In this document: in pieces, positions 29,617 to 46,054 of the stretch | Position numbering within the stretch: position 1 is the stretch's first letter | Layout of the letters: each line of letters begins with the position of its first letter | NCBI GenBank assembly: GCA_019240395.1 | Contig: JAFAYM010000038.1 | Span: 1-57,474, forward strand | DNA length: 57,474 nucleotides | Origin: Acidisphaera sp. | Lineage (GTDB): Bacteria; Pseudomonadota; Alphaproteobacteria; Acetobacterales; Acetobacteraceae | Direction of reading: 5' to 3' | Notes under the pieces: model-generated | Seen by the model: the letters and a program-made list of their open reading frames with translations, nothing else | Told to the model about the DNA's origin: nothing | Databases searched by the model: none | Program-made: the position numbers and the translations under genes

Positions 29617-31692
29617 ATGACGTTCCGCTCGCTTTACCGCCACGGCTTCGCCCGGGTCGCCGCCTGCACCACGCCGACGAGCCTCGCCGACCCGGCGGCG
29701 AATGCCGAGGCGACGCTGGCGCTCGCTCGGGAGGGCAGCGACCGCGGCGCCGCTCTCGCGGTATTTCCCGAGCTCGGCATTTCGGGGTACGCCATCGATG
29801 ATTTGCGCCAGCAGGATGCGCTGCTGGACGCGGTCGAGCAGGCGGTGCTCGACCTGGCAACGGGTTCCGAGGATCTGCACCCGCTGATGCTGGTCGGCGC
29901 GCCGCTGCGCCAGGGCGACCGGATTTTCAACGCCGCGATCGCCCTGCATCGCGGGCGCATCCTCGGCGCTGTTCCGAAAATCCACCTGCCCAATTACCGG
30001 GAATTCTACGAACGCCGGCAGTTCGCCTCAGGCGAGGGAATACGTGGCGAGACGATCCGCATCGGCCCGCATGTCGTACCGTTCGGCACCGACCTGCTGT
30101 TTGCCGCGGAAGACCTGCCGGGGCTCGTCGTGCACGCTGAGATCTGCGAGGATTTCTGGGTGCCGATCCCGCCGAGCGCGGAGGCGGCGCTGGCCGGCGC
30201 CCTGGTGCTCGCCAATCTTTCCGCCAGCAACATCACCGTCGGCAAGGCGGAGACCCGCCGGCTGCTGTGCCAGTCGCAATCCGCCCGCTGTCTCGCGGCC
30301 TATCTCTACGCCGCGGCCGGCACGGGAGAGTCCACCACCGACCTGGCGTGGGATGGCCAGACCTCGATCTTCGAGAACGGCGTGGCGCTGGCGGAGACCG
30401 AGCGTTTCCCCGCGCACGCGCAGTTCGCGCTCGCCGACATCGACCTCGACCTGCTGCGCCAGGAACGGTCGCGGATGGGCACGTTCGACGACAACCGCCG
30501 CGGCCACCTCGCCGCGTCCGGCTTTCGCACGATCGGCTTTCGCCTCGATCCGCCGATGCACGATCTCGGGCTGCGGCGGCGCGTCGCGCGCTTCCCTTTC
30601 GTGCCCGCCGATCCGCAGCGCCTCGAGCAGGATTGCTATGAGGCCTACAACATCCAGGTCGCCGGATTGGTGCAGCGCCTGCGCGCGGTGGGGATCGAAC
30701 GGGTCGTCATCGGCGTCTCCGGCGGGCTCGATTCGACCCAGGCGCTGATCGTCGCCGCGAAGGCCTTCGATCTGCTGGGCCTGCCGCGCAGTGGCATCCT
30801 GGGCTACACGATGCCCGGCTTCGCGACCAGCGACCGCACCAAGGAGAATGCGCTGCGGCTGATGGGCGCGCTCGATGTGTCACATGCCGAGCTCGATATC
30901 CGGCCGGCGGCCAGGCGCATGCTGCAGGACCTCGAGCATCCCTTCGCCCGCGGCGAGGCGGTGTACGACGTGACGTTCGAGAATGTGCAGGCCGGGCTAC
31001 GGACCGACTATCTGTTCCGGCTGGCCAACCATCACGACGGCATCGTGCTTGGCACCGGCGACCTTTCAGAGCTGGCGCTGGGCTGGTGCACCTATGGCGT
31101 CGGGGACCAGATGTCGCATTACAACGTCAATGCCGGGGTGCCGAAGACGCTGATCCAGCATTTGATCCGCTGGGTGATCGGCTCCCGGCAATTCGCGCCG
31201 GAGGTGCTGGAGACGCTGGACGCGATCCTCGCCACCGAGATTTCACCCGAGCTGGTGCCGGGTGCCTCGCCGCAAAGCACGGAAGCGAAGATCGGGCCGT
31301 ACGCGCTGCAGGATTTCAACCTCTATCACCTGCTGCGGTTCGGCTTCCGACCCTCGAAGGTGGCGTTCCTGGCGATGCACGCCTGGGGCGATCCCGAGAG
31401 CGGGGACTGGCCGCCCGGGCTGCCGGTCGCGCAACGGCGCTCCTACGATCTGCCGGAAATCCGGAGGTGGCTGGAAGTGTTCCTGCGCCGGTTCTTCGGG
31501 TTCAGCCAGTTCAAGCGTTCGGCGGTGCCGAACGGGCCGAAGGTCGCTGCCGGCGGGTCACTCTCCCCGCGTGGGGATTGGCGTGCGCCCTCCGATGGAA
31601 ATGCGCGGGTGTGGTTGGAGGAGTTGGCGCGGAACGTGCCTGCCGATGAAGGCCCTCCAGCAAGGGCGGAGCGGGTTACTGAGCCAGGTTGA
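29617..31692 (+). CDS. nadE: Glutamine-dependent NAD(+) synthase
   Basis: 691 residues, the long two-domain type. The N-terminal nitrilase-like glutaminase domain has its triad in FPELGISGY (E52), VPKIHLPNY (K121) and HAEICEDFW (C177), releasing ammonia from glutamine. The C-terminal synthetase has the ATP pyrophosphatase loop SGGLDST (starting at about residue 368) and [16 protein letters not shown]. It converts deamido-NAD to NAD in the last step of NAD biosynthesis. It is 16 bp after the MmgE/PrpD gene and has GGAG before the ATG. Its last 17 bp overlap the convergent cupin gene. Confidence 0.96.
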
Positions 31693-31966
31693 ATTCGACC
31701 AGGATGGTGTCGGAGGTGAATTCGGCGCTGTGCCAGGCATTCGGCGCGAAGCGGATGGCGGTGCCGGGACGCAGGGGCACGCTGCCGGCTTCGCATTGAA
31801 GCTCCGCAGCGCCGCTCAGCACGTAGAGGAACTGCTCGTGCGGGTGGCTGTGCCGGGTGGCGACATGCCCGGCCTTCACGTGGATCTGCCGCATACTTGC
31901 ACCCGAGCCCGGCAACTCGGGGCTCGTCCCGGACGCATCCCACTGCGCAGTCGCCACCGTCTCCAT
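31676..31966 (-). CDS. Small cupin-domain protein
   Basis: 96 residues, a single cupin barrel. Motif 1 is [20 protein letters not shown], with the His-x-His and Glu metal ligands, and motif 2 is [17 protein letters not shown], with the later His. It probably binds a metal and either senses or isomerises a small molecule. It is the last gene of the ten-gene amide operon, 13 bp after the nitrilase-family gene, and its stop overlaps nadE in antisense by 17 bp. The reaction is unknown. Confidence 0.88.
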
Positions 31967-31979
31967 CGCGCCCTCCCTT

Positions 31980-32882
31980 CTACGTAACGGGTTGCAAGGG
32001 CATTGCCCTTGCCGGGGTCGAGGGGCGGAGCCCCTCGCCTTGCCTTGCCTGATAAAACTCAGGCCGCCGATCGTTCAGCACGTGGTTGAAAGCATTGAGC
32101 TGCCGCGTCCGGCGAGCCTCTGTCGGATCGAAGCTGGCTAGCAGAATCTCCTCCTGATCCGCTGAAGCCGGTCCGGCCAGAGGCCACCCCGTAGGCGCCA
32201 CGATCAAGCTGCGCCCAAGGAAGGGTTGCCCGCGTTCGGTGCCGATCCGGTCGGCCGCTGCGATGAACACGGAATTGGAATGCGCCGCCGCCATCACCAG
32301 GATGTTGGCCATGGCATCGCGCTGCGCCGGCTGCGCCGGCATCGGCACCCAGTTGGTCGGCACGCAGACGATATCGGCGTCCTGCAGGCCGCACATCCGC
32401 CAGCTCTCGGGGAACCATCCGTCGTAGCAGATCAGCACGCCGACGCGGCCGAACGGCAGATCGAAAATCGGGAAACCGAGATCGCCCGGCGTGAAGAAGC
32501 GGTTCTCCTGATCCCAGAGGTGCATCTTGCGATAGGTGCCGAGCGGACCTTGCGGACCGATCAGCACGGCGCCGTTGAAGAGCCCGTCCCCGGCGCGTTC
32601 GCAGAGCCCGGCGACGATGTGCAGATCGCGCCGTGCGGCGATCTCCGCCCAGGCCTGCACCGAGGGACCGCTGGTGGCATCCTCGGCGAGGTCGCGCGCC
32701 TCCTCGGCGGTCTCGAAGACGTAGCCCGAGTTGCACAATTCGGGGAGCACGATGAGGCGCGCGCCGCGATCGGCGGCGATGCCGATGAACTCCAGGCTGC
32801 GTCGCACATTTTCCTCGACCGCGCCGATGCGCGGCTCCATCTGGATGCAGGCGACGGTCAGCTGCGTGTCAGGCGGCGTCAT
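31980..32882 (-). CDS. Carbon-nitrogen hydrolase (nitrilase superfamily amidohydrolase)
   Basis: 300 residues with the full Glu-Lys-Cys triad: VLPELCNSGY (E48), YRKMHLWD (K119) and LICYDGWFPE (C152). The RKMHLWD...F.PGD stretch points to aliphatic amidase/N-carbamoyl-amide type enzymes rather than true nitrilases. It should hydrolyse an amide, ureide or carbamoyl bond, releasing ammonia and an acid. The ATG lies inside the end of the amidase gene (14-bp overlap); an ATG 24 bp upstream is possible. The last ~20 residues (after RRPEFYQARQ) are encoded by a family II repeat, so the natural C-terminus has been replaced or extended by it. Confidence 0.92.
   Translation of the reverse strand: MTPPDTQLTVACIQMEPRIGAVEENVRRSLEFIGIAADRGARLIVLPELCNSGYVFETAEEARDLAEDATSGPSVQAWAEIAARRDLHIVAGLCERAGDGLFNGAVLIGPQGPLGTYRKMHLWDQENRFFTPGDLGFPIFDLPFGRVGVLICYDGWFPESWRMCGLQDADIVCVPTNWVPMPAQPAQRDAMANILVMAAAHSNSVFIAAADRIGTERGQPFLGRSLIVAPTGWPLAGPASADQEEILLASFDPTEARRTRQLNAFNHVLNDRRPEFYQARQGEGLRPSTPARAMPLQPVT
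31984..32041. repeat. Palindromic repeat family II, copy C, read as coding sequence
   Basis: On the - strand it runs AAGGCGAGGGGCTCCGCCCC-TCGACCCC-...-AAGGGCAATGCCCTT-GCAACCCGTTAC and aligns almost base for base with half of the element at 6223-6278. Hairpins GAGGGGC/GCCCCTC and AAGGGCA/TGCCCTT are visible. Most of it is translated as the C-terminal tail of the nitrilase-family protein, whose TAG follows at its edge (31980-31982). Confidence 0.8.
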
Positions 32883-34278
32883 TCGGGTGCCGGTCCTTCC
32901 AGTCATGCGCGGCTTCGTAGGCGTGCGCGGCGCGCAGCACCGTGGCCTCGTCGAACGGCTTGGCGGCGATCTGCAGCCCGATCGGCAGGCCCGCCTCATC
33001 GAAGCCGCAGGGCAGGGTTATCGCCGGCAGTCCCGTCAGGTTATAAGGATAGGTGAGCCGCCAGGTCGCGGCCAGCGCGCTCTCCTCGCCCCCGGCAATT
33101 TCGACCTTGGCCTGGCCGATGCGCGGCGCGGTGACCGGCTCAGTGGGACCCAGGATGACGTCGGCCTTGTCGAAGACGCGCCGGAACTCCTGCATCAGCA
33201 CGGTGCGCAGCTGCTCGGCCTTCAGGAGATCGGGGCCGGTCACGAACCGCCCGAGCTGCACCAATGTCCGCACATCCTGCGTGTAGTGCGCCACCCTGCC
33301 GGCGCGCAGCGACACGTCGTGATACGCCGTCGAGGAGGAGAGCTCGATGGCGAAGATGGCGCCCAGCCCGTATTGCAAGTTGGGCAGCTGGACGTCGTGC
33401 ACGACCGCGCCCGCCCTGGCGTACCAGGCGATCGCCTGCTCCACCGCAGCCTCCACCGAGGCATGGTTGCGGCCGAAGAAGTGGTTGCGCACCACGGCGA
33501 CGCGCAGGCCGCGCACGCCCTGATGCAACACCGCCCCGTAGTCGGGCACCGCGTGGTCGCGGCTGCCGGGATCGGCCGGATCATAGCCCGCGAGCACCTG
33601 CAGCAGGATCGCCGCGTCGGCGACGCTGCGGGTCAGCGGTCCGGCGTGATCGAGCGACCAGCTGTGCGGCACGATGCCGGCGCGGCTGATGCGCCCGAAG
33701 CTCGGCTTCAGCCCGACCGTGCCGCACAGGCTGGCGGGGATGCGGATCGAGCCGCCGGTGTCCGAGCCCATTGCCGCCGGGCACAATCCCGCGGCAACCG
33801 CCGCTCCCGAGCCGCCGCTGGAGCCGCCGGGGATACGTTCCGTGTCCCAGGGATTGCGGGTCGGCGGGGTGATGGTTCCCCAGGCGAATTCATGGGTGCG
33901 GGTCTTGCCGACGAGGATGGCCCCGGCGGCGCGCAGGCGCGCGGCGACGGCGGAATCGGTGCGCGGGAAGGCGACACCCGGCGCGGTGCTGCCGGCCGTG
34001 GTCGGCATGTCGGCGGTGAGGTAGTTGTCCTTGATGCCGACGGGGATGCCGTGCAACGGCCCGCGCCAGGTGCCGGTGCGGATTTCCTGCTCGGCGCGCC
34101 GCGCCTGCTCCAGCGGCTCCGGCGCCAGGCAGATGAAGCTTTGCAGCACCGGATCGATGCGCGCGATGCGCTCGAGCAGGCTTTCCATGAGCGCGACTGG
34201 CGAGAGACGGCTGGCCCGGACCTCCGCCGACAGCGTCTCGATGGTGGCGAAGCCGAGATCAGGGCGCATCGTCGCCAT
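32869..34278 (-). CDS. Amidase signature-family amidase
   Basis: 469 residues with the amidase-signature triad: GIPVGIKDNYLT (K83), PGGSSGGSGAAVAAGL (cis-Ser S153) and GSDTGGSIRIPASLCG (nucleophile S177). It hydrolyses a C-N amide bond in the cytoplasm. Homologs include AtzE/biuret-type amidases and GatA. GatA is unlikely because no gatB is near and the gene sits in a transporter operon. It starts inside the end of the small upstream gene (20-bp overlap) and overlaps the nitrilase-family gene by 14 bp, so all three are translationally coupled. It is the main candidate enzyme for breaking down the transported amide compound. Confidence 0.94.
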   Translation of the reverse strand: MATMRPDLGFATIETLSAEVRASRLSPVALMESLLERIARIDPVLQSFICLAPEPLEQARRAEQEIRTGTWRGPLHGIPVGIKDNYLTADMPTTAGSTAPGVAFPRTDSAVAARLRAAGAILVGKTRTHEFAWGTITPPTRNPWDTERIPGGSSGGSGAAVAAGLCPAAMGSDTGGSIRIPASLCGTVGLKPSFGRISRAGIVPHSWSLDHAGPLTRSVADAAILLQVLAGYDPADPGSRDHAVPDYGAVLHQGVRGLRVAVVRNHFFGRNHASVEAAVEQAIAWYARAGAVVHDVQLPNLQYGLGAIFAIELSSSTAYHDVSLRAGRVAHYTQDVRTLVQLGRFVTGPDLLKAEQLRTVLMQEFRRVFDKADVILGPTEPVTAPRIGQAKVEIAGGEESALAATWRLTYPYNLTGLPAITLPCGFDEAGLPIGLQIAAKPFDEATVLRAAHAYEAAHDWKDRHPNDAA

Positions 34279-34444
34279 CCCGGTAGGCGAGCAGCGGATC
34301 GTACACCACGGCGGGATGGATGTCGGTCAGATCGAGGGTGCGCAGCCGGCGGATTTCGCGATGCATGGTCTCATAGGCCAGCAGCATCGCCCGCATCGTC
34401 TCGTCCGGCAGCTCGATGCCGAGAATGTCGCGCAACCGGTCCAT
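34259..34444 (-). CDS. Very small GatC/AtzG-like protein, putative amidase partner
   Basis: 61 residues, too small to be noticed easily but bracketed on both sides by translational overlaps: TGATG with the DUF1028 gene and a 20-bp overlap with the amidase. The sequence begins MDRLRDILGIELPDETMRAM and ends IHPAVVYDPLLAYRDGDDAP. An N-terminal helix pair followed by a short proline-containing tail with acidic residues recalls GatC and AtzG, the small subunits that stabilise GatA-type amidases. Similarity is by architecture and context rather than by strong motif, so the subunit role is an inference. Confidence 0.72.
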   Translation of the reverse strand: MDRLRDILGIELPDETMRAMLLAYETMHREIRRLRTLDLTDIHPAVVYDPLLAYRDGDDAP

Positions 34445-35178
34445 CACGCAGTCCCCCCGCCGCCGGGACGGTAGGGCGGCGGGGTGAGCAGCAGCGCGGT
34501 GACGCCCTCCGGCGCCGCAAGCGCCGGCTGCCCCCGCTTCGGCATGCCCGCCAGGAATGGCCGCACCTGGGCGAGGAAGATGCTCCAGATCCGGCGCAGC
34601 TCGGCGACGGGATGGCGATGCTCGTCGACGCGCAGATCGACCCAGGGATAGTCCTCGGTGTCGTGCACCAGCAGCGCGGCGGATTGCTTGCCGCGCTTGT
34701 CTCCGCCGACCGCCTGCCCGGCCTCCAGCGCCAGCAGCAGGCGTTCGGCGAGCTCGGCGGCGGCGCTGCCCAGGAAGGCGGCTTGCATGGCGTCGAGCAC
34801 CTCCGGTCCGGTCAGCATGTTGCCCTGGATGGCGTAGTCGGGCCCGGTATGATGGCCAAACCACGGCGTGCAGTTGTTCCCCGACCAGCTTGCCGCCCTG
34901 CCCTGGCAGTCCACCACGCCGATCTGGCGGACATCCCTGGCCTCATCGTCCGCGAGCACGCTGTCCAGCGCCGCCTGGGCGCTCGCGCCGCCGGCCAGCG
35001 CCTCGATCGAGCGGAAGCCGAGATAGGGATTGACCCAGGCCTGGGTGCTGACCGCGCCCACCCCAGGCCGCACATGCGGACAGAGCGAGCCGACGGCGGG
35101 AACCGCGGTGCTGACCGCGACACCGAGCATGCCGGTGCGCGAGCAGCGTGCGGCAATGGAGAAGGTGTTGGCCTGCAT
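34444..35178 (-). CDS. DUF1028 domain protein (Ntn-hydrolase-like fold)
   Basis: 244 residues. The N-terminal MQANTFSIAARCSRTGMLGV and AVSTAVPAVGSLCPHVRPGV are the DUF1028 hallmark ('tfSIva.dp..g..GvavaS...avG...p....gvGavatQ'). AWSGN-like ASWSGNNCTPWFGH and YAIQGNMLTGPEVLDAM follow. The family has an Ntn-hydrolase-like fold, and members often neighbour amino-acid or peptide catabolism genes. Function is not established; hydrolysis of an amide is plausible. The gene is 20 bp after the LivF-type ATPase and overlaps the next tiny gene by one base. Confidence 0.9.
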   Translation of the reverse strand: MQANTFSIAARCSRTGMLGVAVSTAVPAVGSLCPHVRPGVGAVSTQAWVNPYLGFRSIEALAGGASAQAALDSVLADDEARDVRQIGVVDCQGRAASWSGNNCTPWFGHHTGPDYAIQGNMLTGPEVLDAMQAAFLGSAAAELAERLLLALEAGQAVGGDKRGKQSAALLVHDTEDYPWVDLRVDEHRHPVAELRRIWSIFLAQVRPFLAGMPKRGQPALAAPEGVTALLLTPPPYRPGGGGTA

Positions 35179-35198
35179 GCCTGCCTCCGGGTGCGCGG

Positions 35199-35906
35199 TC
35201 AGACCGCGAGATGGTCGTGGATGCGCGCCTCCACGCCGGGCTGAGCGATGAGACCGGTATCGACGATCTCGCCGCGGGTCAGCACGGCGTAGCGCTGAGC
35301 GACCGAGAGCGCGAACTGCACGTTCTGTTCGATCAGCAGAATGCTCAGCTGCGACCCGCTGAGCTCCGACCGCATCACCTCCGCCATCCGCAGGATCACC
35401 GAGGGCTGCAGCCCCTCCGAAATCTCGTCGACCAGCATGAGCCGGGGACGTGACAGCAGGGCGCGGGCCATGATGAGCATCTTCTGCTCGCCGCCGCTGA
35501 GCGTGCCGGCGGCCTGGCGGCGCCGCTTGGCGAGGAAGGGAAAGAAGCCGGCGACCCGGTCCAGCGCCGGCGCGAAGCCGCGATCGCTCCGCAGGCCGAG
35601 GCGCAGGTTTTCCTCGACGCTCAAATCCTGGAAGATCGCCTGGTCCTGCGGGCTGTAGGCGACCGAGCGCGCGGCCAGGCGGTGGGGCGACAGGCCGGTG
35701 GTCGGCGTGCCGTGGATGCGGATGGTGCCGCCATGGGGCGGCAGAAAGCCCATGATGGTCTTCAGCAGCGTGCTCTTGCCCATGCCGTTCTTGCCGAGCA
35801 CGGCCAGCACCTCGCCCTGTTGCAGGCTGAGTGTAATGTCGCGCAGCACCATGGCCTCGCCGTAGCCGCTGGTGAGGTGCTCGATCTGCAGGGCCGCGTC
35901 AGCCAT
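35199..35906 (-). CDS. ABC transporter ATP-binding protein, LivF type
   Basis: 235 residues. Walker A GKNGMGKST, signature LSGGEQKMLIMARALLSRP, Walker B LMLVDEISEGLQP and IEQNVQFAL (H-loop position) are all present. In branched-chain-type ABC importers it pairs with a LivG ATPase, here fused to the LivM permease gene just upstream, which it overlaps by 8 bp. It powers uptake of the ligand bound by the duplicated periplasmic proteins of this operon. Confidence 0.94.
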   Translation of the reverse strand: MADAALQIEHLTSGYGEAMVLRDITLSLQQGEVLAVLGKNGMGKSTLLKTIMGFLPPHGGTIRIHGTPTTGLSPHRLAARSVAYSPQDQAIFQDLSVEENLRLGLRSDRGFAPALDRVAGFFPFLAKRRRQAAGTLSGGEQKMLIMARALLSRPRLMLVDEISEGLQPSVILRMAEVMRSELSGSQLSILLIEQNVQFALSVAQRYAVLTRGEIVDTGLIAQPGVEARIHDHLAV

Positions 35907-37761
35907 CCGAGCCGGGTCCTGCGGCGGCGGGCTCGCCGATCGCCTGCGGCTCGCCGGTGTAGATGGTGCGCACCAGCTCGGAGGTGACGACCTCCTCGAC
36001 GCTGCCGTCCAGCACGATGCGGCCCTGGTGCAGCACGATGATGCGCGAGCTGATCTCGCGCACGAATTCGAGGTCGTGCTCGATCAGGAGGATGCAAAGC
36101 CCGTGCTTCGCCACAAGGTCGACGAGGATGCCGCCGATCAATGTGCGTTCCGGCTTGGTCAGGCCGGCGGTCGGCTCGTCCAACAGCAGCACGCTCGGCT
36201 CCATGGCCAGCACCATGGCGAGTTCCAGTGCCTGCTTGGCGCCGTGGGAGAGGTGGCGGACGGTGGTGCCGAGCTGGGCCACGAGGCCGGTCGCACGGGC
36301 GACCTGCATCGCCGCTTCGGGCAGGTGAATTTCGTCGGCGCGCCGCCAGGGTGACAGCCTCTCCAGACGTGAGCGGGAGACCCGCAGGGATTCCGCCACG
36401 GTCAGCGCATCGAACACGTTCGGCGTCTGGAATTTTCGCCCGAGGCCGAGGCGCACGCAGCGTTCCGGGGGCATGCGGCCGACTTCGCGCCCCTGGATGG
36501 CGATGCGCCCGCGGGTACGCTCCTGCCCGTCGCTGATGCAGCGGATGAGCGTGGTCTTGCCGGCACCGTTCGGCCCGACCAGGCTGACCAGCTCGCCGCG
36601 GCGGCCGGTGAAGGAGATGTCCTCCAGCACATGCAGGCTGCCATAGCTCCGCGCCACGCCGGTGATTTCCACCGCGGCGGGCGCGTGCCCCATCTGCATG
36701 TGGGTCTCGATGTCGTAGGTCGGTGCCTCGGCCAGGCGTGCCGCGGTCGGCTGGATGCGGGACACCCGGGGAAGCAGGCGGCGAACCAGTCCCGCGAGTG
36801 CCGGGCCCAGCCCTTGCGGCATGATGACGATGACGACGATGAACACCGCGCCGACGACGAGCTGCCAGACGAAGGGCAGACTGCCGCTCAGCCAGGCGCT
36901 GACGAAATCGATCAGCACCGCGATGATCGCCGGGCCTATGAGTGTGCCGCGGCCGCCCAGCGCCACCCAGATCACCAGCATGGTGCCGAACTGGAAATCC
37001 CCGAGATCGGGGGCGACGACGTCGGTGTAGGCGGCGTAGGCGTAGCCGGCCAGGGCGGCCACCACCGCCGAGACCACCAGCAGCGCGCCCTTTACCCAGG
37101 AAGTGGAAATGCCGAAATAGCGGCAGCGCTGCTCGTTCTCGCGGATCGAGACCAGCAGCCGGCCGGCATCGCTGCGCACGAAGATCCAGCCGAGCAGGGT
37201 GACCAGGACCAGGGCAACGCCGGCGATACGGAACCAGGCTTCATTCGAAAGATCGAACGTGTCGAAACCGGAAAGCCCGCTGCTGGATCCGGTGAAGTCA
37301 CCGCCCGCGTAGATCACCTGCACGAAGACGATCGACAGCACCAGCGTGACCACGGAGATGTAGAGCGGCGACACGCCCGTGCCGAAAGCCAGCCAGGCGA
37401 TCAGGGCCGCCACCAGCCCGGCCACGACCACGCCGCCGCCGAGCGCCGCGACGGCCACCAGCGGCGTGAAATCGAGGTGGGAAAAAGCCAGGCCGCAGGC
37501 ATAGGCGCCGATCGCAAAGAACGCCGACTGCCCGAACGACAGCACCCCCGTGAAGCCCCAGAGGATGTCCACGGTGACGGCGATGCTGCCGTAGAGGAAG
37601 GAGCGGATCAGGATGTTGACGGAGTAGCGGTCGAGCAGCAGCGGACCGACCGCGACCAGCGCCAGCCCGAGCAAGGTCAGCGCGCCGATGCCGCCGAGCT
37701 CGAGCCGGAAGCGCTCCGAGGGCAGCCGGGCCGGTGCGGCGTCGCGCATCGGCGCGCTCAT
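35899..37761 (-). CDS. Fused LivM permease - LivG ATPase of a branched-chain-type ABC importer
   Basis: 620 residues, one uninterrupted frame. Residues ~20-325 are a LivM permease (GFTGVLSFGQSAFFAIGAYA at 69-88; REN near 207; IGPAIIAVLIDFVSAWL at 275-291). A ~40-residue linker follows. Residues ~363-605 are a LivG ATPase with Walker A GPNGAGKTT (396-404), signature LSHGAKQALELA (504-515), Walker B VLLLDEPTAGL (524-534) and IEHDLEFV. It starts 9 bp after the LivH-type gene and overlaps the LivF-type gene by 8 bp. Fusion fixes one permease per ATPase in the complex. Such fusions are known in this transporter class and the clean frame argues against an artefact. Confidence 0.94.
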   Translation of the reverse strand: MSAPMRDAAPARLPSERFRLELGGIGALTLLGLALVAVGPLLLDRYSVNILIRSFLYGSIAVTVDILWGFTGVLSFGQSAFFAIGAYACGLAFSHLDFTPLVAVAALGGGVVVAGLVAALIAWLAFGTGVSPLYISVVTLVLSIVFVQVIYAGGDFTGSSSGLSGFDTFDLSNEAWFRIAGVALVLVTLLGWIFVRSDAGRLLVSIRENEQRCRYFGISTSWVKGALLVVSAVVAALAGYAYAAYTDVVAPDLGDFQFGTMLVIWVALGGRGTLIGPAIIAVLIDFVSAWLSGSLPFVWQLVVGAVFIVVIVIMPQGLGPALAGLVRRLLPRVSRIQPTAARLAEAPTYDIETHMQMGHAPAAVEITGVARSYGSLHVLEDISFTGRRGELVSLVGPNGAGKTTLIRCISDGQERTRGRIAIQGREVGRMPPERCVRLGLGRKFQTPNVFDALTVAESLRVSRSRLERLSPWRRADEIHLPEAAMQVARATGLVAQLGTTVRHLSHGAKQALELAMVLAMEPSVLLLDEPTAGLTKPERTLIGGILVDLVAKHGLCILLIEHDLEFVREISSRIIVLHQGRIVLDGSVEEVVTSELVRTIYTGEPQAIGEPAAAGPGSDG

Positions 37762-37770
37762 GGCGTCGGC

Positions 37771-38607
37771 TCAGGCACGGGCAAATCCCGCGGGACGGAT
37801 GCGCAGCAGCACGGCCGCGAGAACCACGATGGTCAGCGCGCCGAGCACCGGGCTGCTGTAGGTGCTGACCACGACCTGGGCACCGCCCAGCACCAGCGAG
37901 GCAGCGGCGAGGCTGATCAGCGAAGTGCCGGAGACCATGACCAGCATGAAGGCGTTCAGCAGCCATGGCAGGCCCATCAGCGGATCGATGCTGAGCAGCG
38001 GCGTGATCAGCGCGCCGGCGACCGTGGCAATGCCGGCGCCGACGCTGAACGTGGCGAATCGCACCAGCTCGCTGTTGATGCCGAGGCTCTGGGCGAGCGT
38101 CTCGTTCATGATCACCGCCCGCGCCGCCAGGCCGAGCCGCGTGCCCTGCATCACCACGCCGATCAGTCCGCCGAGCACCAGCGCTACGATCAGCATGATC
38201 AGTCGGTAGAGCGAGTAGCTGGTGCCGAGCAGCGGCACCGCCCCCTGCACCGGGCTCAGCACGAATTGCGTGCTGCGGCCGAAGCCGATGGTGATCAGCT
38301 GGACCACCACGATGCTCAGCCCCCAGGTCGCGAGGATGGCATCGAGCGGGCGGCTGTAGAGCGGGCGGACGATCAGCCGCTCGACAGCTGCGCCGAGCAG
38401 CAGACCGATGACGAGAGCCACCGGTGCTGCGAGCCATGGGCTCCAGTTCAGCTCGGTGACGATCAACGCAGCGTAGCCGCCGAGGGTGAGGAAGCCGCCA
38501 TGCGCGAAGTTGATGATCTTCAGCACGCCGAACACGATCAGCAGCCCGACGGCCACCACGAACAGGATGCCCGCGGTGGTCAGGATGTCGAGCAGCAGAT
38601 CGGTCAT
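37771..38607 (-). CDS. ABC transporter permease, LivH type
   Basis: 278 residues, about eight membrane helices. Near the N-terminus is VLKIINFAHGGFLTLGGYAA, the diagnostic LivH motif ('iiNfAhG.....GAY'). RAVIMNETLAQSLGINSEL contains the cytoplasmic EAA-like loop that contacts the ATPase. It forms the heterodimeric channel with the LivM half of the downstream fusion. It lies 22 bp after the first binding-protein gene and 9 bp before the fusion gene. Confidence 0.93.
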   Translation of the reverse strand: MTDLLLDILTTAGILFVVAVGLLIVFGVLKIINFAHGGFLTLGGYAALIVTELNWSPWLAAPVALVIGLLLGAAVERLIVRPLYSRPLDAILATWGLSIVVVQLITIGFGRSTQFVLSPVQGAVPLLGTSYSLYRLIMLIVALVLGGLIGVVMQGTRLGLAARAVIMNETLAQSLGINSELVRFATFSVGAGIATVAGALITPLLSIDPLMGLPWLLNAFMLVMVSGTSLISLAAASLVLGGAQVVVSTYSSPVLGALTIVVLAAVLLRIRPAGFARA

Positions 38608-38628
38608 CGCCAGGCTCGGCGCGACGCA

Positions 38629-38728
38629 GCTATTTCAGTTTCGGGCATTGGTCGCCGGGATCGACGTTCTTGAAGCTCTGGATCACCTTGACGCTGCCGT
38701 CCTGCTGCACCTGGCCGAGATACATGGT
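38629..38728. repeat. 100-bp perfect direct repeat, downstream copy (3' end of binding protein 1)
   Basis: This stretch is identical base for base to 39938-40037. It encodes the last ~32 residues of both binding proteins (ending DPGDQCPKLK) plus the stop. Identity including third codon positions shows very recent duplication or gene conversion. Confidence 0.92.
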
Positions 38729-39826
38729 CAGCGGCGCATGGTGCTGCTTGTTCATCTGGATCGGGCCGCGCGCGCCGGTGAAGCTGACCGTGGGAAGCGC
38801 CTTCAGCACCTTGTCGGTATCCAGGCTGCCGGCCTTCTCGACCGCTGCCTTGTACAGGTAGACTCCGTCATATTCAGGCTCGGACAGATCGTTCGGCGTC
38901 TTCATCTCACTACCGAACATTTTCTGCAGGCCGGCGATGAACGCCTTGTTCTGCGGATTGTCGAGACTGGTCAGGTAGGATTGCGAGACGTAGACGCCAG
39001 CTGCGTCCGCGCCGATCGCCTTGGCTGTGCCTTCATCGACGCCGAGATTGCCGAACGGCACCTGGATGCCGGATGCCCTGAGCTGCTTGGTCAGCGTCAC
39101 ATTCGGGGCGCCGCCGGCGGTCGAGCTGACCAGCGCATCCGGGTTGGCGGTGCGCAGCTTGCTCAGCACCGGCGTCCAGTCCGATGCGTCCATCGGCAGA
39201 TACTCCTCGCCGATCACCTTCCCGCCATGCGCCTCGATGTATTTGCGGGTGAAGCCGAGCATGCCGCGCCCAAAGGCGTAGTCGCTGCCTACGAGAAAGA
39301 AGGTTTTCGCTGCCTTCTCCTTCTGGAAGTAGTCAATGACGGGCGGCACCTGCTGTTCCGGTACCCAGGCGTCGACGAACAGGTACGGGCTGCACGATCT
39401 TCCCTCATAGGAGGACGTGTAGATGAACGGCACCTTGCCCCGGGCCACGACCGGCAGGCCGGCATTGCGCGCCGCACTGGTTTCCATGGTGATCAGCGCG
39501 TTGACGTTCTGCTGGAAGATGAGCGAATTGAATGCCTTCACGGCGCCATCGGCGCCGCTGCCATCATCGGCAACGTCGAGCTCGACGTGTTTGCCGAGAA
39601 TGCCGCCATGAGCGTTGATTTCGGCAACGGCCAACTGTCCCGCCTGCACGACGGAAGGGGCGACCACACTGTTGGCGCCGCTCAGACCGATCGGCACGCC
39701 GATCTTCACCACGTTCTGCGCCAGTGCCGCGAAGCTGCCCAAGGTCAGCCCCAGCACGGCACCGACCACCAGTGTGCCTCGTGCACGCCGAGCCCGCCGG
39801 TACCACGATTGATCGAGATGTCCCAC
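38630..39826 (-). CDS. Branched-chain/amide-type ABC transporter substrate-binding protein, copy 1
   Basis: 398 residues from a GTG with GGAGG six bases upstream. A signal peptide with a long basic n-region (RRARRARGTLVVGAVLGLTL...ALAQ) precedes a periplasmic binding fold of the Peripla_BP_6/LivJ class. SGANSVVAPSVVQAGQLAVA, LVGSDYAFGRGMLGFTRKY and GEEYLPMDASDW are landmarks; the last two recall the amide/urea-type receptors AmiC and UrtA. It is near-identical to the neighbouring paralog upstream. The ligand is unknown; downstream amidohydrolases suggest an amide, ureide or amino-acid derivative. Confidence 0.92.
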   Translation of the reverse strand: MGHLDQSWYRRARRARGTLVVGAVLGLTLGSFAALAQNVVKIGVPIGLSGANSVVAPSVVQAGQLAVAEINAHGGILGKHVELDVADDGSGADGAVKAFNSLIFQQNVNALITMETSAARNAGLPVVARGKVPFIYTSSYEGRSCSPYLFVDAWVPEQQVPPVIDYFQKEKAAKTFFLVGSDYAFGRGMLGFTRKYIEAHGGKVIGEEYLPMDASDWTPVLSKLRTANPDALVSSTAGGAPNVTLTKQLRASGIQVPFGNLGVDEGTAKAIGADAAGVYVSQSYLTSLDNPQNKAFIAGLQKMFGSEMKTPNDLSEPEYDGVYLYKAAVEKAGSLDTDKVLKALPTVSFTGARGPIQMNKQHHAPLTMYLGQVQQDGSVKVIQSFKNVDPGDQCPKLK

Positions 39827-39937
39827 CTCGGCCTCCTTCGGTCCGAGCCGATGCCTGATCCGAGCCGGCCATCGCTCGCCTCAAAGGCGAGGGTTCGGCA
39901 ATTTCGATGCCAGCCGGCCCGAGATCAACGTTTCCCG

Positions 39938-40037
39938 GCTATTTCAGTTTCGGGCATTGGTCGCCGGGATCGACGTTCTTGAAGCTCTGGATCACCTTGA
40001 CGCTGCCGTCCTGCTGCACCTGGCCGAGATACATGGT
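39938..40037. repeat. 100-bp perfect direct repeat, upstream copy (3' end of binding protein 2)
   Basis: Identical to 38629-38728, see that entry. The tandem arrangement of the two genes makes loss of one copy by recombination possible. Confidence 0.92.
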
Positions 40038-41147
40038 GAGCGGCGCATGGTGCTCCTTGTCCATGGTGATGGTGCCGCGCGGGCCGTCGAAGCTTACCGT
40101 GGGCAGTGCCTTCAGCACCTTCTCGGTGTCCAGGCTGCCGGCCCTCTCGATCGCCGCCTTGTAGAGATAAACGCTGTCATATTCCGGCTCGGACAGGTCG
40201 TTCGGGATCTTGAAGTCGCTGCCGAACATCTTCTGCAGCGCTGCGATGAATGCCTTGTTCTTCGGGTTGTCGAGCGTCGTCAGGTAGGATTGCGAGATGT
40301 AGACCCCGGCCGCATCCGCGCCGATCGCCTTCGCCGTGCCCTCATCCACCGCCAGATTGCCGAACGGAACATCAACGCCGGCGGCGCGAAGCTGCTTGGT
40401 CAAGGTGACATTCGGGGCGCCCCCCGCCGTCGAGCTGATCAGCGCATCGGGGTGTGCGGCGCGCAGCTTGCTGATCACCGAGGTCCAGTCCGAAGCGTCC
40501 ATCGGCAGGTACTCCTCGCCGAGCACGCGGCCGCCATGGGCTTCGATGTATTTGCGGGTGAAGCCGAGCATGCCGCGGCCGAAGGCATAATCACTGCCGA
40601 CGAGATAGAACGTCTTGGCGTTCTTCTCCTTGAGGAAGTAGTCGACGATTGGCGCGACCTGCTGGTCCGGCACCCAGGCGTCGACGAACAGGTAAGGGCT
40701 GCACGACCGTCCCTCGTAATAGGAGGTGTAGATGAACGGCACCTTGCCGCGCGATACCACCGGCAGGCCGGCGTTACGGGCGGCACTGGTTTCCATGGTG
40801 ATGATGGCGTTGGCGTTCTGCTGGAAGAGCAACGCGTTGAACGCCTTGACCGCGCCGTCGGCGCCGCTGCCGTCATCGGCGACGGCGAACTCGACCTGCT
40901 TGCCGAGGATGCCGCCATGAGCGTTGATCTCGGCGACCGCCAGCTGCCCCGCCTGCACGACCGAGGGTGCGACCACACTGTTGGCGCCGCTCAAGCCCAC
41001 GGGGACGCCGATCTTGATGACGGACTGGGCCTGCGCCGTGCCGTATACCGGTGCGGCAAGGCTGAGGATCGTTCCCAGGGCGCGGGCACCACGCCCGAAT
41101 TTCATGCCCGGCTCGTGCCGGTTTCGACGGGTACGCCGCTCGCGCAT
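39939..41147 (-). CDS. Branched-chain/amide-type ABC transporter substrate-binding protein, copy 2
   Basis: 402 residues. It aligns without gaps to copy 1 over the mature protein, with a large majority of residues identical and differences mostly conservative (for example GKHVELDV versus GKQVEFAV). The signal peptide differs more. An ATG 42 bp downstream (MKFGRGARALGTIL) is an alternative start, but the longer n-region matches copy 1 better and GGGGA precedes the first ATG. It is the first gene of the ten-gene operon and should carry the operon promoter in the 192-bp divergent gap before rpiB. Duplication may widen ligand range or increase dosage. Confidence 0.9.
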   Translation of the reverse strand: MRERRTRRNRHEPGMKFGRGARALGTILSLAAPVYGTAQAQSVIKIGVPVGLSGANSVVAPSVVQAGQLAVAEINAHGGILGKQVEFAVADDGSGADGAVKAFNALLFQQNANAIITMETSAARNAGLPVVSRGKVPFIYTSYYEGRSCSPYLFVDAWVPDQQVAPIVDYFLKEKNAKTFYLVGSDYAFGRGMLGFTRKYIEAHGGRVLGEEYLPMDASDWTSVISKLRAAHPDALISSTAGGAPNVTLTKQLRAAGVDVPFGNLAVDEGTAKAIGADAAGVYISQSYLTTLDNPKNKAFIAALQKMFGSDFKIPNDLSEPEYDSVYLYKAAIERAGSLDTEKVLKALPTVSFDGPRGTITMDKEHHAPLTMYLGQVQQDGSVKVIQSFKNVDPGDQCPKLK

Positions 41148-41339
41148 CGCTATCGATCCCCAACTGCCGCGGCGGCGCCGATCGCCACCGCTCCATCGGG
41201 CTTGATTGTTTCCGAAACCCGCGCGCCGTCAATGGCCGGATCGGCAGCACCGGCGCTCTTTCCACCGGGCTCGATACGATTACAATGAACCCCCAACGAT
41301 GCGGCGTCACACTCGCCGAGGCCTGAGGGAGAAGCGTCC

Positions 41340-41786
41340 ATGCGCCTGGTCATCGGTTCCGATCACGCCGGCTTTCCGATGAAGGCCGCCGTGCTCACGC
41401 ATCTGCGAGGCCGCGGTCACGAGGTCATCGACGTCGGCTCGCATGACGACCGCCCCGTCGACTTTCCCGACATCGCCCGCAAGCTCGTCGACATCATCAA
41501 GCGCGGCGAGGCGGCGCGCGGCATCATGGTGTGCGGCACCGGGGTCGGCGCCTCGATCGCCGCAAACAAGGTGCGCGGCATTCGCGCCGCGGTCTGCCAC
41601 GACGTCCATTCCGCGCATCAGAGCGTCGAGCATGACGACGTCAACGTGATGTGCCTCGGCGCGCAGATCGTCGGTCCCTGGCTGGCCTGCGATCTGCTGG
41701 ATGCGTATGTCGGGGCCGAGTTTTCCACCGACGAGGATTGCCGGCGCCGCGTCGCCAAGCTCGGGGAAATGGAGAACCAGGCGTAG
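41340..41786 (+). CDS. rpiB: RpiB/LacA/LacB family sugar-phosphate isomerase
   Basis: 148 residues, normal RpiB length. IGSDHAGFPMKAAVLTHLRGRGHEVIDVG is the N-terminal signature; MVCGTGVGASIAANKVRGIRAAVCHD carries the catalytic Cys and the GTG.G.siaANk motif; HDDVNVMCLGAQIVG completes the pattern. It interconverts aldose and ketose phosphates such as ribose 5-phosphate and ribulose 5-phosphate, or related 4-carbon/6-carbon acids in catabolic operons. Being first in a catabolic operon with MFS, dehydrogenase and lactonase genes (30 bp before the MFS), it may act on an uncommon sugar phosphate rather than in the pentose phosphate pathway. Confidence 0.9.
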   Translation: MRLVIGSDHAGFPMKAAVLTHLRGRGHEVIDVGSHDDRPVDFPDIARKLVDIIKRGEAARGIMVCGTGVGASIAANKVRGIRAAVCHDVHSAHQSVEHDDVNVMCLGAQIVGPWLACDLLDAYVGAEFSTDEDCRRRVAKLGEMENQA

Positions 41787-41816
41787 CGGACCAGGCGGGG
41801 CGCAGGGGAGGAAACG

Positions 41817-43097
41817 ATGGACGCAGCAGTAGTGCCGGCGGCGCGGTGGATGCGGATCATTCCCGCCGCCTTCCTGATGTACACGATCTCTTTTATCGAT
41901 CGGAACAACATCGCCTTCGGCTTCTTCGGCATCCAGAAGGAGCTCGGTTTGGACGCGACCGCGGCCGGGCTCGCCGGCGGCATTTTTTTCTTCGGCTACC
42001 TGTTCCTGCAAATTCCGGGCAGCGTGCTGGCGCAGCGCTGGAGCGCAAAGGCCTTCGTCGCCGTCTCGCTGGTGCTCTGGGGCGTCTGCTCGATGGCGAC
42101 CGCGTTCGTGCATAGCTTGCCGCAGCTGCTGGTGGCCCGCTTCCTGCTCGGCGTCGTGGAAGGCGGGGTGTCGCCGGCGACGATGATCCTGCTGACCAAG
42201 TGGTTCCCGCTGAACGAGCGCGCCCGCGCCAACGGCTACTGGTATCTCTGCATCCCCGTTGCCTCGATCATCACCGCCCCGCTCTCCGGCTGGATTCTCA
42301 CCCACTATGACTGGCGGACGATGTTCCTCATCGAGGGTGCGCCGGCACTGGTCTTCGCGGCGATCTGGTGGTTCGTCATCGACGAAGACCCCAGCCGGGC
42401 GAAGTGGATTTCGCGGGCGGAGCGGAGCTATCTGGAGAGCACCCTTGCGGCGGAGAAGCGGGTGCTGACCAGCGAGGTTCCAAGCCTGCGCGATGCGCTG
42501 GCCAACCACAACGTGATCACCCTGCTGCTGCTGTTCTGCTTCCTGCAGGTCGGCTTCTACGGCTACGGCCTGTGGCTGCCGCGGCTGGTACAGTCGCTCT
42601 CGCACGGCACCATGATGCAGATCGGCTGGATCTCGGCAGTGCCCTGGGCGGCCGCGATGATCGGCTCGATCATCAACTCGACACATGCCGACCGCACCGG
42701 CGAGCACCGCCTGCACATTGCCGTGCCGATCCTTGCCGGAGCCTTGTTCCTGGCCCTCTCGGTGCTGGCCGGACCGGGCCGGCCGGTGCTGGCAATCGCG
42801 GCGCTCAGCATCTGCCTCGGGTTCATCTACTGCTACGCCGTGTTCTGGGCGGCACTCACCGCCTTCGTCGCCGAGGACGTGCTGGCCGTGGCGATGGGCT
42901 CGATCAACGCCATCGGCAATCTCGGTGGGTTCTTCGGCCCGTTCATCGTCGGATTCCTGATCGACCGCACCGGCAATGTCCTGGTCGGCGAGGGTTTTCT
43001 GATCCTTTCCCTGGTGATCTCCGGCAGCCTGGCGTTGCGGCTGCGCGACAGCCCGGCGGTGGCGCGCAGCCGGCTCGCCGCCGTCGGTCGGGCGTAG
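41817..43097 (+). CDS. MFS transporter, anion:cation symporter (ACS) family
   Basis: 426 residues with twelve membrane helices. The start, RIIPAAFLMYTISFIDRNNIAFGFF ('y..af.DR.Ni..A'), is the ACS family hallmark. RFLLGVVEGGVSPATMILLTKWF and ERARANGYWYLCIPVASIITAPLSGWI follow. ACS carriers bring in organic anions such as glucarate, hexuronates, phthalate or tartrate with protons. It stands between rpiB and a 3-hydroxyisobutyrate-dehydrogenase-type gene (4-bp gap), fitting import of a sugar acid. A good ribosome site (GGAGGAAACG) precedes the ATG. Confidence 0.94.
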   Translation: MDAAVVPAARWMRIIPAAFLMYTISFIDRNNIAFGFFGIQKELGLDATAAGLAGGIFFFGYLFLQIPGSVLAQRWSAKAFVAVSLVLWGVCSMATAFVHSLPQLLVARFLLGVVEGGVSPATMILLTKWFPLNERARANGYWYLCIPVASIITAPLSGWILTHYDWRTMFLIEGAPALVFAAIWWFVIDEDPSRAKWISRAERSYLESTLAAEKRVLTSEVPSLRDALANHNVITLLLLFCFLQVGFYGYGLWLPRLVQSLSHGTMMQIGWISAVPWAAAMIGSIINSTHADRTGEHRLHIAVPILAGALFLALSVLAGPGRPVLAIAALSICLGFIYCYAVFWAALTAFVAEDVLAVAMGSINAIGNLGGFFGPFIVGFLIDRTGNVLVGEGFLILSLVISGSLALRLRDSPAVARSRLAAVGRA

Positions 43098-43101
43098 GGC
43101 G

Positions 43102-43986
43102 ATGGGCAATAACCCGCACCTCGGCTTCATCGGCATCGGCCTGATGGGCGCGGCGATGAGCCTGCGGCTGCTCGAGCGCGGCTGGGATCTCACGGTCTGG
43201 AACCGCGAGCCGTCGCGGCTCGCGCCGGTCCTCGCGGCCGGCGCCCGCGCGGCCGGCAGTCCGCGCGAAGTCGCCGAGAGCTGCGAGATCGTGCTGATGT
43301 GCGTACTCCACACCGAGGCGGTGGCGGATTGCGTCTGGGGCGAGGACGGGGTGGCCGCGGCGGCCAGCGGCGCCGGGCTGGTGATCGATCACTCCACCAT
43401 CGATCCCGCGGCGACGCGCGATTTCGCCGCCCGGCTGAAGGGGCGCACCGGGGCGGGCTGGGTCGACGCGCCGGTATCCGGCGGCCCGGTTGCCGCGCGG
43501 GCGGGCAGCCTGACCATCATGCTCGGCGCCGAACCGGAGGACATGGCGCATGCCGCGCCGGTGCTGGCCGACCTCGCCTCGAATGTCACGCGCATGGGCG
43601 GGGTCGGCGCCGGGCAGCTCACCAAGCTGGTCAACCAGGCGATCGTCGGCTCGGGCTTCGTGCTGATGGCCGAGGCGCTGCGCCTGGCCGAGGCGGCCGG
43701 CATCGACGCGGCGGCGATGCCAGGGTGCCTGGCCGGCGGCTTGGCGGACAGCGCGCTGCTCCAGCGCATCTATCCGCAGATGCAGGCCCGTGCCTTCGAT
43801 CCGCCGCTGAGCTACGCCCGTCAGCTGCTGAAGGACATGAAGGCGGTCACCGGCGCCGCCCAGGCGCTCGATCTGACCTTGCCGATGGTCGAGACGGCGT
43901 GCCGGCGCTATGCCGATTATGTCGGGCTGGGGAACGAGCTCGTCGACAGCGCATCCATCATCCGCTTGTATGAGGCGGGAAGCTGA
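43102..43986 (+). CDS. NAD(P)-dependent beta-hydroxyacid dehydrogenase (3-hydroxyisobutyrate dehydrogenase family)
   Basis: 294 residues. GFIGIGLMGAAMSLRLLERG is the Rossmann motif, VIDHSTIDPAATRDFAARLK and WVDAPVSGGPVAARAGSLTIMLG are the substrate-binding DAPVSGG region, and GQLTKLVNQ contains the catalytic lysine (K175). Enzymes of this family act on tartronate semialdehyde, 3-hydroxyisobutyrate or 6-phosphogluconate-like acids. Neighbours suggest a sugar-acid route, e.g. reduction of a semialdehyde to glycerate. The stop overlaps the next ATG (TGATG). Confidence 0.93.
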   Translation: MGNNPHLGFIGIGLMGAAMSLRLLERGWDLTVWNREPSRLAPVLAAGARAAGSPREVAESCEIVLMCVLHTEAVADCVWGEDGVAAAASGAGLVIDHSTIDPAATRDFAARLKGRTGAGWVDAPVSGGPVAARAGSLTIMLGAEPEDMAHAAPVLADLASNVTRMGGVGAGQLTKLVNQAIVGSGFVLMAEALRLAEAAGIDAAAMPGCLAGGLADSALLQRIYPQMQARAFDPPLSYARQLLKDMKAVTGAAQALDLTLPMVETACRRYADYVGLGNELVDSASIIRLYEAGS

Positions 43987-44897: not shown

Positions 44898-45000
44898 AGC
44901 GTGATGACCGAAGGTGGAATCACCGCAGGTCTGAATCACGCTCTCAAACCAAACAGTTAGAGCGTGATGACTTCGTCTTTTAGAGTCATCGCGCTCTAAC
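44895..45000 (+). repeat. Palindromic repeat family I, copy 2 (forward orientation)
   Basis: Two hairpins: AGAGCGTGAT (44896-44905) with ATCACGCTCT (44935-44944), and AGAGCGTGATGACT (44959-44972) with AGTCATCGCGCTCT (44984-44997), one mismatch. It aligns with the reverse complement of 11565-11668. The amidohydrolase TAG (44895-44897) forms its left boundary. It divides the amidohydrolase gene from the TRAP binding-protein gene that follows 35 bp later. Confidence 0.85.
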
Positions 45001-45034
45001 GATAGAAGAGCCACGACAGAAAGGGAGGCGAGAC

Positions 45035-46039: not shown

Positions 46040-46054
46040 CCGGACCGAGCCGGC

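Follow-up and report, generated by a model that had tools for sequence, protein, structure and literature searches.

An operon of ten genes (positions 31676–41147, minus strand) in a 57,474-nucleotide stretch from Acidisphaera sp. (contig JAFAYM010000038.1; the whole stretch is called the window below) appears to be devoted to importing and hydrolysing a small amide other than urea, probably N-acylated or peptide-like and with more than one hydrolysable C–N bond. We give this reading a probability of about three in four. In the proposed mechanism, a UrtA/AmiC-type receptor, duplicated here, would bind the compound in a pocket that differs from the urea-receptor one and pass it to a LivH/LivMG/LivF transporter. 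Inside the cell, a C–N hydrolase and DUF1028, a predicted threonine hydrolase of the N-terminal nucleophile (Ntn) type, would form the degradation core, and an amidase with an AtzG/GatC-like partner would add a frequent extra step. The AtzG-like protein may dock DUF1028 onto the amidase, so that intermediates could pass between two active sites. That the imported compound is what these enzymes cleave, and the order of the steps, we infer. The evidence is computational and consists of gene content, conserved linkage, distinct receptor motifs, DUF1028–AtzG fusions and a fold prediction for DUF1028, in which one threonine is invariant.

The original prediction, made from the window's sequence, had proposed uptake and stepwise amide hydrolysis with a leaning towards ureides. 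Import and hydrolysis by one unit stand, carried by 22 importer-bearing loci in relatives (17 of them with the amidase), AmiC/AmiR-like regulators in half of these loci and a DUF1028 model of Ntn fold; the ureide leaning has been given up. Compared with known kinds of system, the operon is a variant, with a Urt-like importer, AmiCR-like control in relatives and an AtzGE-like amidase, to which DUF1028 and the C–N hydrolase are added. The original prediction knew of no described pathway with this gene set, and we likewise found no description of one in the open-access literature searched. It seems to be a so far undescribed system by which proteobacteria of several families scavenge nitrogen.

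Operon layout and conserved synteny

The ten genes are tightly packed and partly overlapping, as the original prediction of a one-strand operon with gaps of at most ∼110 bp had it. Their 5′ to 3′ order is bp1, bp2 (the two binding proteins), LivH, LivMG, LivF, DUF1028, small protein, amidase, C–N hydrolase and cupin. The widest intergenic gap is 112 bp (bp1–bp2). Overlaps join LivMG to LivF (8 nt), DUF1028 to the small protein (1 nt, the small-protein ATG lying on the DUF1028 stop in TGATG), the small protein to the amidase (20 nt) and, provided that the later C–N hydrolase start holds, the amidase to the C–N hydrolase (14 nt); the C–N hydrolase open reading frame (ORF) opens at 32999 and its likely ATG start is at 32882. 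The gene caller and ORF picker were home-made. Pfam confirms every operon protein except the 61-residue small protein.

To place the operon among its relatives we scanned GTDB with ten DUF1028 sequences, which gave at least 529 confirmed relatives, and examined the best 80 of 529 loci (loci and genomes carry L and G numbers here). A Urt-like importer stands beside DUF1028 in 22 of the 80. These 22 importer loci include six from Methylobacterium, two from Ancylobacter, one from Prosthecomicrobium, two from Jiella, and one each from Aurantimonas, Paraburkholderia, Jezberella and a SAR116 genome, together with seven from betaproteobacterial, burkholderial or unclassified proteobacterial metagenome-assembled genomes. 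The C–N hydrolase (51–65% identity) is present in all 22 and in none of the 58 others. Likewise, the small protein plus amidase occur in 17/22 importer loci and 0/58 others at the cut-off used for the linkage counts (at least 50% identity); below it, the other loci hold an AtzG–amidase pair at 48% beside a Dpp importer (L155) and an amidase at 37% (L185). These synteny counts indicate that the grouping of the genes is more than chance, and the linkage is stronger than was visible from the window sequence alone. Conserved co-occurrence in relatives, whose absence the original prediction had named beforehand as telling against it, is thus what the loci display.

The position of the C–N hydrolase varies, lying before the receptor in 13 importer loci, after the amidase in seven and elsewhere in two, with its linkage kept throughout. 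Elsewhere it is rare: among 384 other genomes sampled across the class, two have it at E ≤ 1e-60 (G427, and G156 on a 3.9 kb contig). The LivM–LivG fusion is a single ORF of 588–611 aa in 20/22 importer loci, and L133 and L136 are cut by contig ends; the fusion, a feature of the original prediction, is therefore constant wherever the contig permits. The importer, DUF1028 and the C–N hydrolase are the core of the system and the AtzG–amidase pair is a frequent extra, since five importer-locus genomes lack a comparable amidase. The small cupin (31676–31966; PF07883, 54 bits) was listed in the operon by the original prediction. None of the 80 loci has a homologue of it at E ≤ 1e-3, and we therefore rejected it as a member and place it outside the conserved set.

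In the window's own family, three of 149 other genomes sampled (G053, G130 and G039) carry DUF1028 at 72–77% identity, and all three have the block receptor–LivH–LivMG–LivF–DUF1028 in the window's order. One other member of the genus, with an assembly that is 72% complete, has no LivMG match at E ≤ 1e-80.

Importer, receptors and regulators

The importer is encoded by bp1 (39939–41147; 402 aa, a UrtA/AmiC-like periplasmic binding protein, PF13458 294.7 bits and PF13433 239.2 bits), bp2 (38630–39826; 398 aa, GTG start, PF13458/PF13433), a LivH/UrtB-like permease (37771–38607; PF02653, 107.4 bits), the LivM–LivG (UrtC–UrtD-like) permease–ATPase fusion (35899–37761; 620 aa, PF02653 and PF00005 in a single ORF) and a LivF/UrtE-like ATPase (35199–35906; PF00005, 105.1 bits). 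Among NCBIfam models, the receptors, LivH, LivF and both halves of LivMG are closest to Urt models, all below the cut-offs: UrtA with 243–251 bits for the receptors (bp1 251.4; cut-off 492.75), UrtB with 187.5 for LivH (250.3), UrtC with 171.5 for the LivMG permease half (296.2), UrtD with 197.8 for its ATPase half (304.1) and UrtE with 224.6 for LivF (285.8). Liv models fit worse, with 54.5 and 52.8 bits for the receptors (cut-off 477), 52.1 for LivH (379), 148.5 for LivF (441) and 141.8 for LivG (362). The Liv-type domain architecture would suit a branched-chain amino acid importer whose unrelated neighbours lie close by chance, but the C–N hydrolase linkage (22/22 versus 0/58) and the much higher Urt than Liv scores of the receptors and LivH make this very improbable, and on these two grounds we rejected a simple importer of that kind. 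The operon therefore resembles UrtABCDE in that every importer part is nearer to the Urt than to the LivKHMGF models, and differs from it in scoring below all Urt cut-offs, in the fusion of LivM to LivG and in the receptor pocket.

Receptor relatives of bp1 with solved structures are named urea receptors at ranks 2–4 by score, and the top one names no ligand. A UrtA study (PMC10392092) describes S122, Q144, Y190 and N246 as bonding urea and the W120A variant as not binding. We mapped these residues onto the operon's receptors through a phmmer alignment to 8hic, which is probably the structure of that study, judging from its title and residue pattern. UrtA S122, Y141, E146 and Y190 are kept in the operon-type receptors. 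In an alignment of 24 receptors (two from the window, three from its family and 19 from the 22 importer loci, omitting L147, whose bp1 ORF was not picked, and the contig-cut L136 and L144; the ends of the G130 and G039 receptors are approximate), W120 is invariantly Glu, N246 is invariantly Gly, and Q144 becomes Tyr, Phe, Ser or Leu. With these three positions changed, urea is improbable as a ligand, contrary to the urea/ureide leaning of the original prediction, and we rejected a urea importer on these pocket residues and the Urt cut-offs.

The 24 receptors look like one specificity. All share the pocket motifs METSAARNAGLP, YTSxYEG, GSDYA(F/Y)GRGML, STAGGAPNVT and DEGTAK; the letters flanking METSAARNAGLP vary among them, and none has A at its final P position. 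The METSAARN and STAGGAPN motifs could serve as a sequence marker for the imported nitrogen compound. The window's bp1 and bp2 are 83% identical (327/392). In a tree, bp2 joins the G053/G130 receptors (98/97) and bp1 lies outside, so that the duplication need not be recent. The original prediction had treated the duplicated receptor as a feature of the system; the 22 relatives show one close receptor, not two.

Half of the importer loci carry regulators of the AmiC/AmiR kind. AmiC-like (49–100% identity) and AmiR-like (38–100%) genes are present in 11/22 importer loci and 0/58 others, with AmiC matches counted only above 38% identity. The AmiC-like protein was confirmed in three loci tested (Peripla_BP_5, 410–437 bits), as was AmiR (AmiR_N and ANTAR above cut-off in three loci tested). 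In ten of these loci the pair is upstream of the cluster's first gene, and in L153 it is downstream of LivF. AmiC and AmiR control amide-inducible operons, and by analogy the AmiC/AmiR-like genes presumably control these clusters. The arrangement recalls amiEBCRS, the layout of the Pseudomonas aliphatic amidase operon, in that AmiC-like and AmiR-like genes stand beside a nitrilase-superfamily gene in the relatives. The window operon differs from it in having no AmiC/AmiR, in the added importer, DUF1028 and AtzG–amidase pair, and in its C–N hydrolase, which scores 49.5 bits with an aliphatic amidase model whose cut-off is 427. Three importer loci (L148, L151 and L161) have an XRE–cupin regulator instead. 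A similar regulator (46–50% identity) is shared by these Urt-type loci and the Dpp-type loci L131, L135 and L140; its occurrence with both cluster types hints that Urt-type and Dpp-type DUF1028 clusters may share a kind of effector.

DUF1028, the small protein and the two amide hydrolases

The DUF1028 protein (34444–35178; PF06267, 257.1 bits) is predicted to be an Ntn (proteasome-type) hydrolase. An AlphaFold2 model built on 40 sequences has a mean predicted local distance difference test score of 92.1. Foldseek with this model returned 2imh (7.7e-19), followed by HslV (1.4e-4), proteasome subunits and NAAA at 1e-4 to 1e-3. A second look at these matches with VIA-align gave Z scores of 31 to 2imh, 16 to the circularly permuted taspase1 and 11–12 to HslV/proteasome. 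In many proteasome beta chains, the first aligned pair sets model residue 5 against chain residue 1, which we take to be the catalytic threonine. T5, the candidate nucleophile, is invariant in 40/40 aligned sequences (the window and 39 author-chosen loci of the 80, with the six fused proteins described below excluded). Threonine directly follows the start codon in 45 of 77 DUF1028 relatives with a readable start (3/80 are cut or unclear), so that removal of the methionine would free it; in the window protein four residues precede T5, and cleavage after N4 would be needed. Its hydrolase activity we infer from the model.

The closest solved relative, 2imh (Silicibacter pomeroyi SPO2555, a hypothetical protein; phmmer 1.7e-18), shares family and fold with the window DUF1028 at 29% identity. 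Unlike 2imh, the window's subgroup continues beyond about residue 200 in a C-terminal tail that frequently ends in PPxRPGGGG, and in some species an AtzG-like part is fused behind this tail. A search of an open-access library found no literature on DUF1028, PF06267 or SPO2555. Through the conserved clusters, a family of unknown function, for which 2imh is the one solved structure found, would be tied to amide catabolism. A plasmid origin was also considered and is unsupported: one plasmid record, from Deinococcus deserti, matches DUF1028 at E ≤ 1e-60.

The 61-residue protein (34259–34444) is likely a remote relative of AtzG/GatC, as the original prediction had suggested. Alone, it has no Pfam match even at E ≤ 10. 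With a profile of 19 small proteins, the window's included, GatC is the top PDB match (E 0.036). Profile–profile comparison gave 96% (E 1.6e-9) against a set in which the genome's own GatC was pooled with six AtzG-like proteins, and a non-significant 9% against GatC alone. Two of five small-protein relatives from importer or Dpp loci match the Pfam AtzG-like family weakly (0.083 and 0.15); among three of the six AtzG-like set, one matches GatC at 1e-4 and AtzG-like at 5e-4, just below cut-off, and two match neither. DUF1028 and the small protein form a single ORF of 306–322 residues in six of the 17 loci with both, five in Methylobacterium and one in Paraburkholderia rhizosphaerae. In a model of one Methylobacterium fusion, a linker of low confidence joins the DUF1028 domain to a single long helix. 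Fusion may have arisen separately in the Methylobacterium clade and in Paraburkholderia; the DUF1028 tree does not resolve the branches concerned.

The amidase-signature enzyme (32869–34278; 469 aa, PF01425, 396.7 bits) and the C–N hydrolase of the nitrilase superfamily (31980–32882; 300 aa from the likely ATG, PF00795, 188.1 bits) both have intact triads, as was originally read from the window. Amidase K83/S153/S177, which we take to be the Lys-cisSer-Ser triad, are invariant in 18/18 proteins (the window and 17 loci). Similarly, C–N hydrolase E48/K119/C152, presumably the Glu-Lys-Cys triad, are invariant in 23/23; these are numbered from the Met at 32882, and the query began one codon early, where the triad reads E49/K120/C153. 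The amidase falls below the cut-offs of AtzE-family models (TIGR02715, 312.3 of 425.75 bits; NF006631, 326.8 of 461) and of the allophanate hydrolase model (210 of 511.05). Among solved structures, the biuret hydrolase 6c62 is its first relative after six GatA sequences.

A study of AtzG describes it as forming an obligate heterotetramer with AtzE, and places some AtzG-related clusters near ABC transporters and amidases (PMC6219798). In AtzG–AtzE (1-carboxybiuret hydrolase; cyanuric acid operon atzDGEHF), a tiny, GatC-derived, non-catalytic partner is encoded directly before an amidase-signature enzyme, and the window's small protein, a likely remote relative, has the corresponding place before its amidase. 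The window differs in that its amidase is below the AtzE cut-off, a C–N hydrolase is added, and DUF1028 precedes the AtzG-like protein, to which it is fused in the six relatives. From these fusions and the obligate partnership of AtzG with AtzE, we predict that DUF1028 is brought to the amidase in a DUF1028–AtzG–amidase complex. A bolder version, which we hold tentatively and at slightly less than even odds, is that DUF1028, the AtzG/GatC-like scaffold and the amidase make up an amidohydrolase with two active sites, descended from the transamidosome's GatCA half. Together with the C–N hydrolase, three unrelated amide-cleaving folds would then act on one compound, delivered through a receptor pocket of new specificity. 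The predicted complex is the sole element that could be categorically new and, if real, would give DUF1028 its first function; the fusions make the link between DUF1028 and amide catabolism directly testable.

The same genes invite a reading as uptake and degradation of urea, a ureide or biuret, in which the Urt-like importer would feed an AtzE-like enzyme and a C–N hydrolase that deaminate along the lines of cyanuric acid or oxalurate catabolism. Urt models are the best-scoring ones for every importer part, the amidase reaches 312–327 bits to AtzE-family models and has 6c62 among its nearest solved relatives, and its probable partner resembles AtzG. Every Urt and AtzE model is nevertheless below cut-off, as is allophanate hydrolase, and of the UrtA urea residues, W120 and N246 are invariantly exchanged in the 24 receptors and Q144 is exchanged as well. 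Moreover, no AtzH-, AtzD- or AtzF-type protein was recognised among the ten operon proteins (Pfam at E ≤ 0.001; NCBIfam). We consider this reading improbable.

Points against, other settings and neighbouring genes

DUF1028 also occurs with oligopeptide-type importers. A DppB-like gene is present in 25 of the 58 DUF1028 loci without a Urt-like importer, and an M20 peptidase follows DUF1028 in both loci tested (L131 and L138). One cluster of G268 holds a Dpp importer, three DUF1028, an AtzG-like protein, an amidase (48–50%), DUF2817 and an aminotransferase, and one contig of G371 carries the small protein, amidase (56%), Dpp genes and DUF1028. DUF1028 thus repeatedly accompanies transporters for compounds of amide or peptide type, and AtzG–amidase in two importer settings, which keeps a peptide-like substrate in play. 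A narrower form of our reading would be scavenging of peptides or acyl-amino acids, with DUF1028 as a small peptidase or acylase and the amidase and C–N hydrolase releasing side-chain or terminal amide nitrogen. The Dpp pairings, the M20 peptidases, the G268 cluster and the XRE–cupin regulator common to Urt-type and Dpp-type loci speak for it, but the window's importer belongs with the Urt/amide importers and not with those for oligopeptides, and the AmiC/AmiR-like regulators of relatives point to small amides. We regard this narrower form as possible, though doubtful.

Several observations weigh against reading the operon as an import-and-hydrolysis unit for an amide. Substrate class, activities and complex are predictions from sequence and models, and likeness of fold does not prove that DUF1028 is active. 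The 80 loci were those with the best scores, and they are not independent samples: Methylobacterium supplies six of the 22 importer loci, L145 is almost identical to L183, and three others (L132, L150 and L155) seem to be contigs of G371 and G268 over again. In five of the 22 the amidase is missing, and nothing comparable is encoded elsewhere in those genomes (42–45% identity, or none at E ≤ 1e-95); Ancylobacter polymorphus is a species without it. In the window's own family, the block in G053 and G130 is followed by a different amidase-signature protein (400–412 residues, ∼31% identical to the window amidase), which overlaps the end of DUF1028 with no tiny gene between, and in G039 by an acetamidase/formamidase-family (FmdA-type) protein; the 15–19 kb examined in these three genomes contain no C–N hydrolase or AtzG-like match. 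The C–N hydrolase orthologue of G427 adjoins a different Liv-type importer and two amidases, in a genome without a DUF1028 match at E ≤ 1e-58. Neither the window's ten genes nor the divergent neighbours tested include AmiC/AmiR, and AmiR_N has no match in the window's genome, in a search in which the controls were silent too. Finally, the AtzG–amidase pair accompanies oligopeptide-type importers in G371 (56%) and G268 (about 50%), so it is not exclusive to the Urt-type system.

Several of the other settings have features of their own. The three DUF1028 genes in the Dpp-type cluster of G268 are in tandem (L080, 6433–8686). On L079 (3–815 and 787–2139), the small protein–amidase–Dpp cluster of G371 lies close to where an N,N-dimethylformamidase beta-subunit-like gene (DMFA2_C, 152.8 bits) ends and to a putative alanine racemase, the latter read from sequence. 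In Mesorhizobium (L138, 8966–15161), DUF1028 and the M20 peptidase lie near F420 biosynthesis genes (F420_ligase, CofD) and what reads as a luciferase-type protein. In Paenarthrobacter, an actinobacterial version (L141, 9998–15500) continues after DUF1028 with a distant receptor, LivH, a LivMG of 591 residues that appears to be fused, and LivF. Amidase relatives in the class at 40–48% identity stand in other contexts, judged by their sequences (old yellow enzyme, F420-type genes, Liv/Dpp importers), and do not help with the substrate.

Around the operon, an NAD synthetase with a C–N hydrolase domain (29617–31692, plus strand) ends convergently and overlaps the cupin by 17 nt. On the other side lies a divergent cluster (41340–47920, plus strand) of an RpiB/LacAB isomerase, an MFS transporter, a 3-hydroxyisobutyrate dehydrogenase-like protein, an Amidohydro_2 protein and a TRAP transporter (DctP and a fused DctQM), which resembles sugar-acid or lactone catabolism and has no obvious tie to the operon. 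Upstream of bp1 is a weak sigma-70-like promoter match (41205–41232, minus strand; a consensus match only), and 31400–41500 contains two promoter-like sites where 0.7 were expected.

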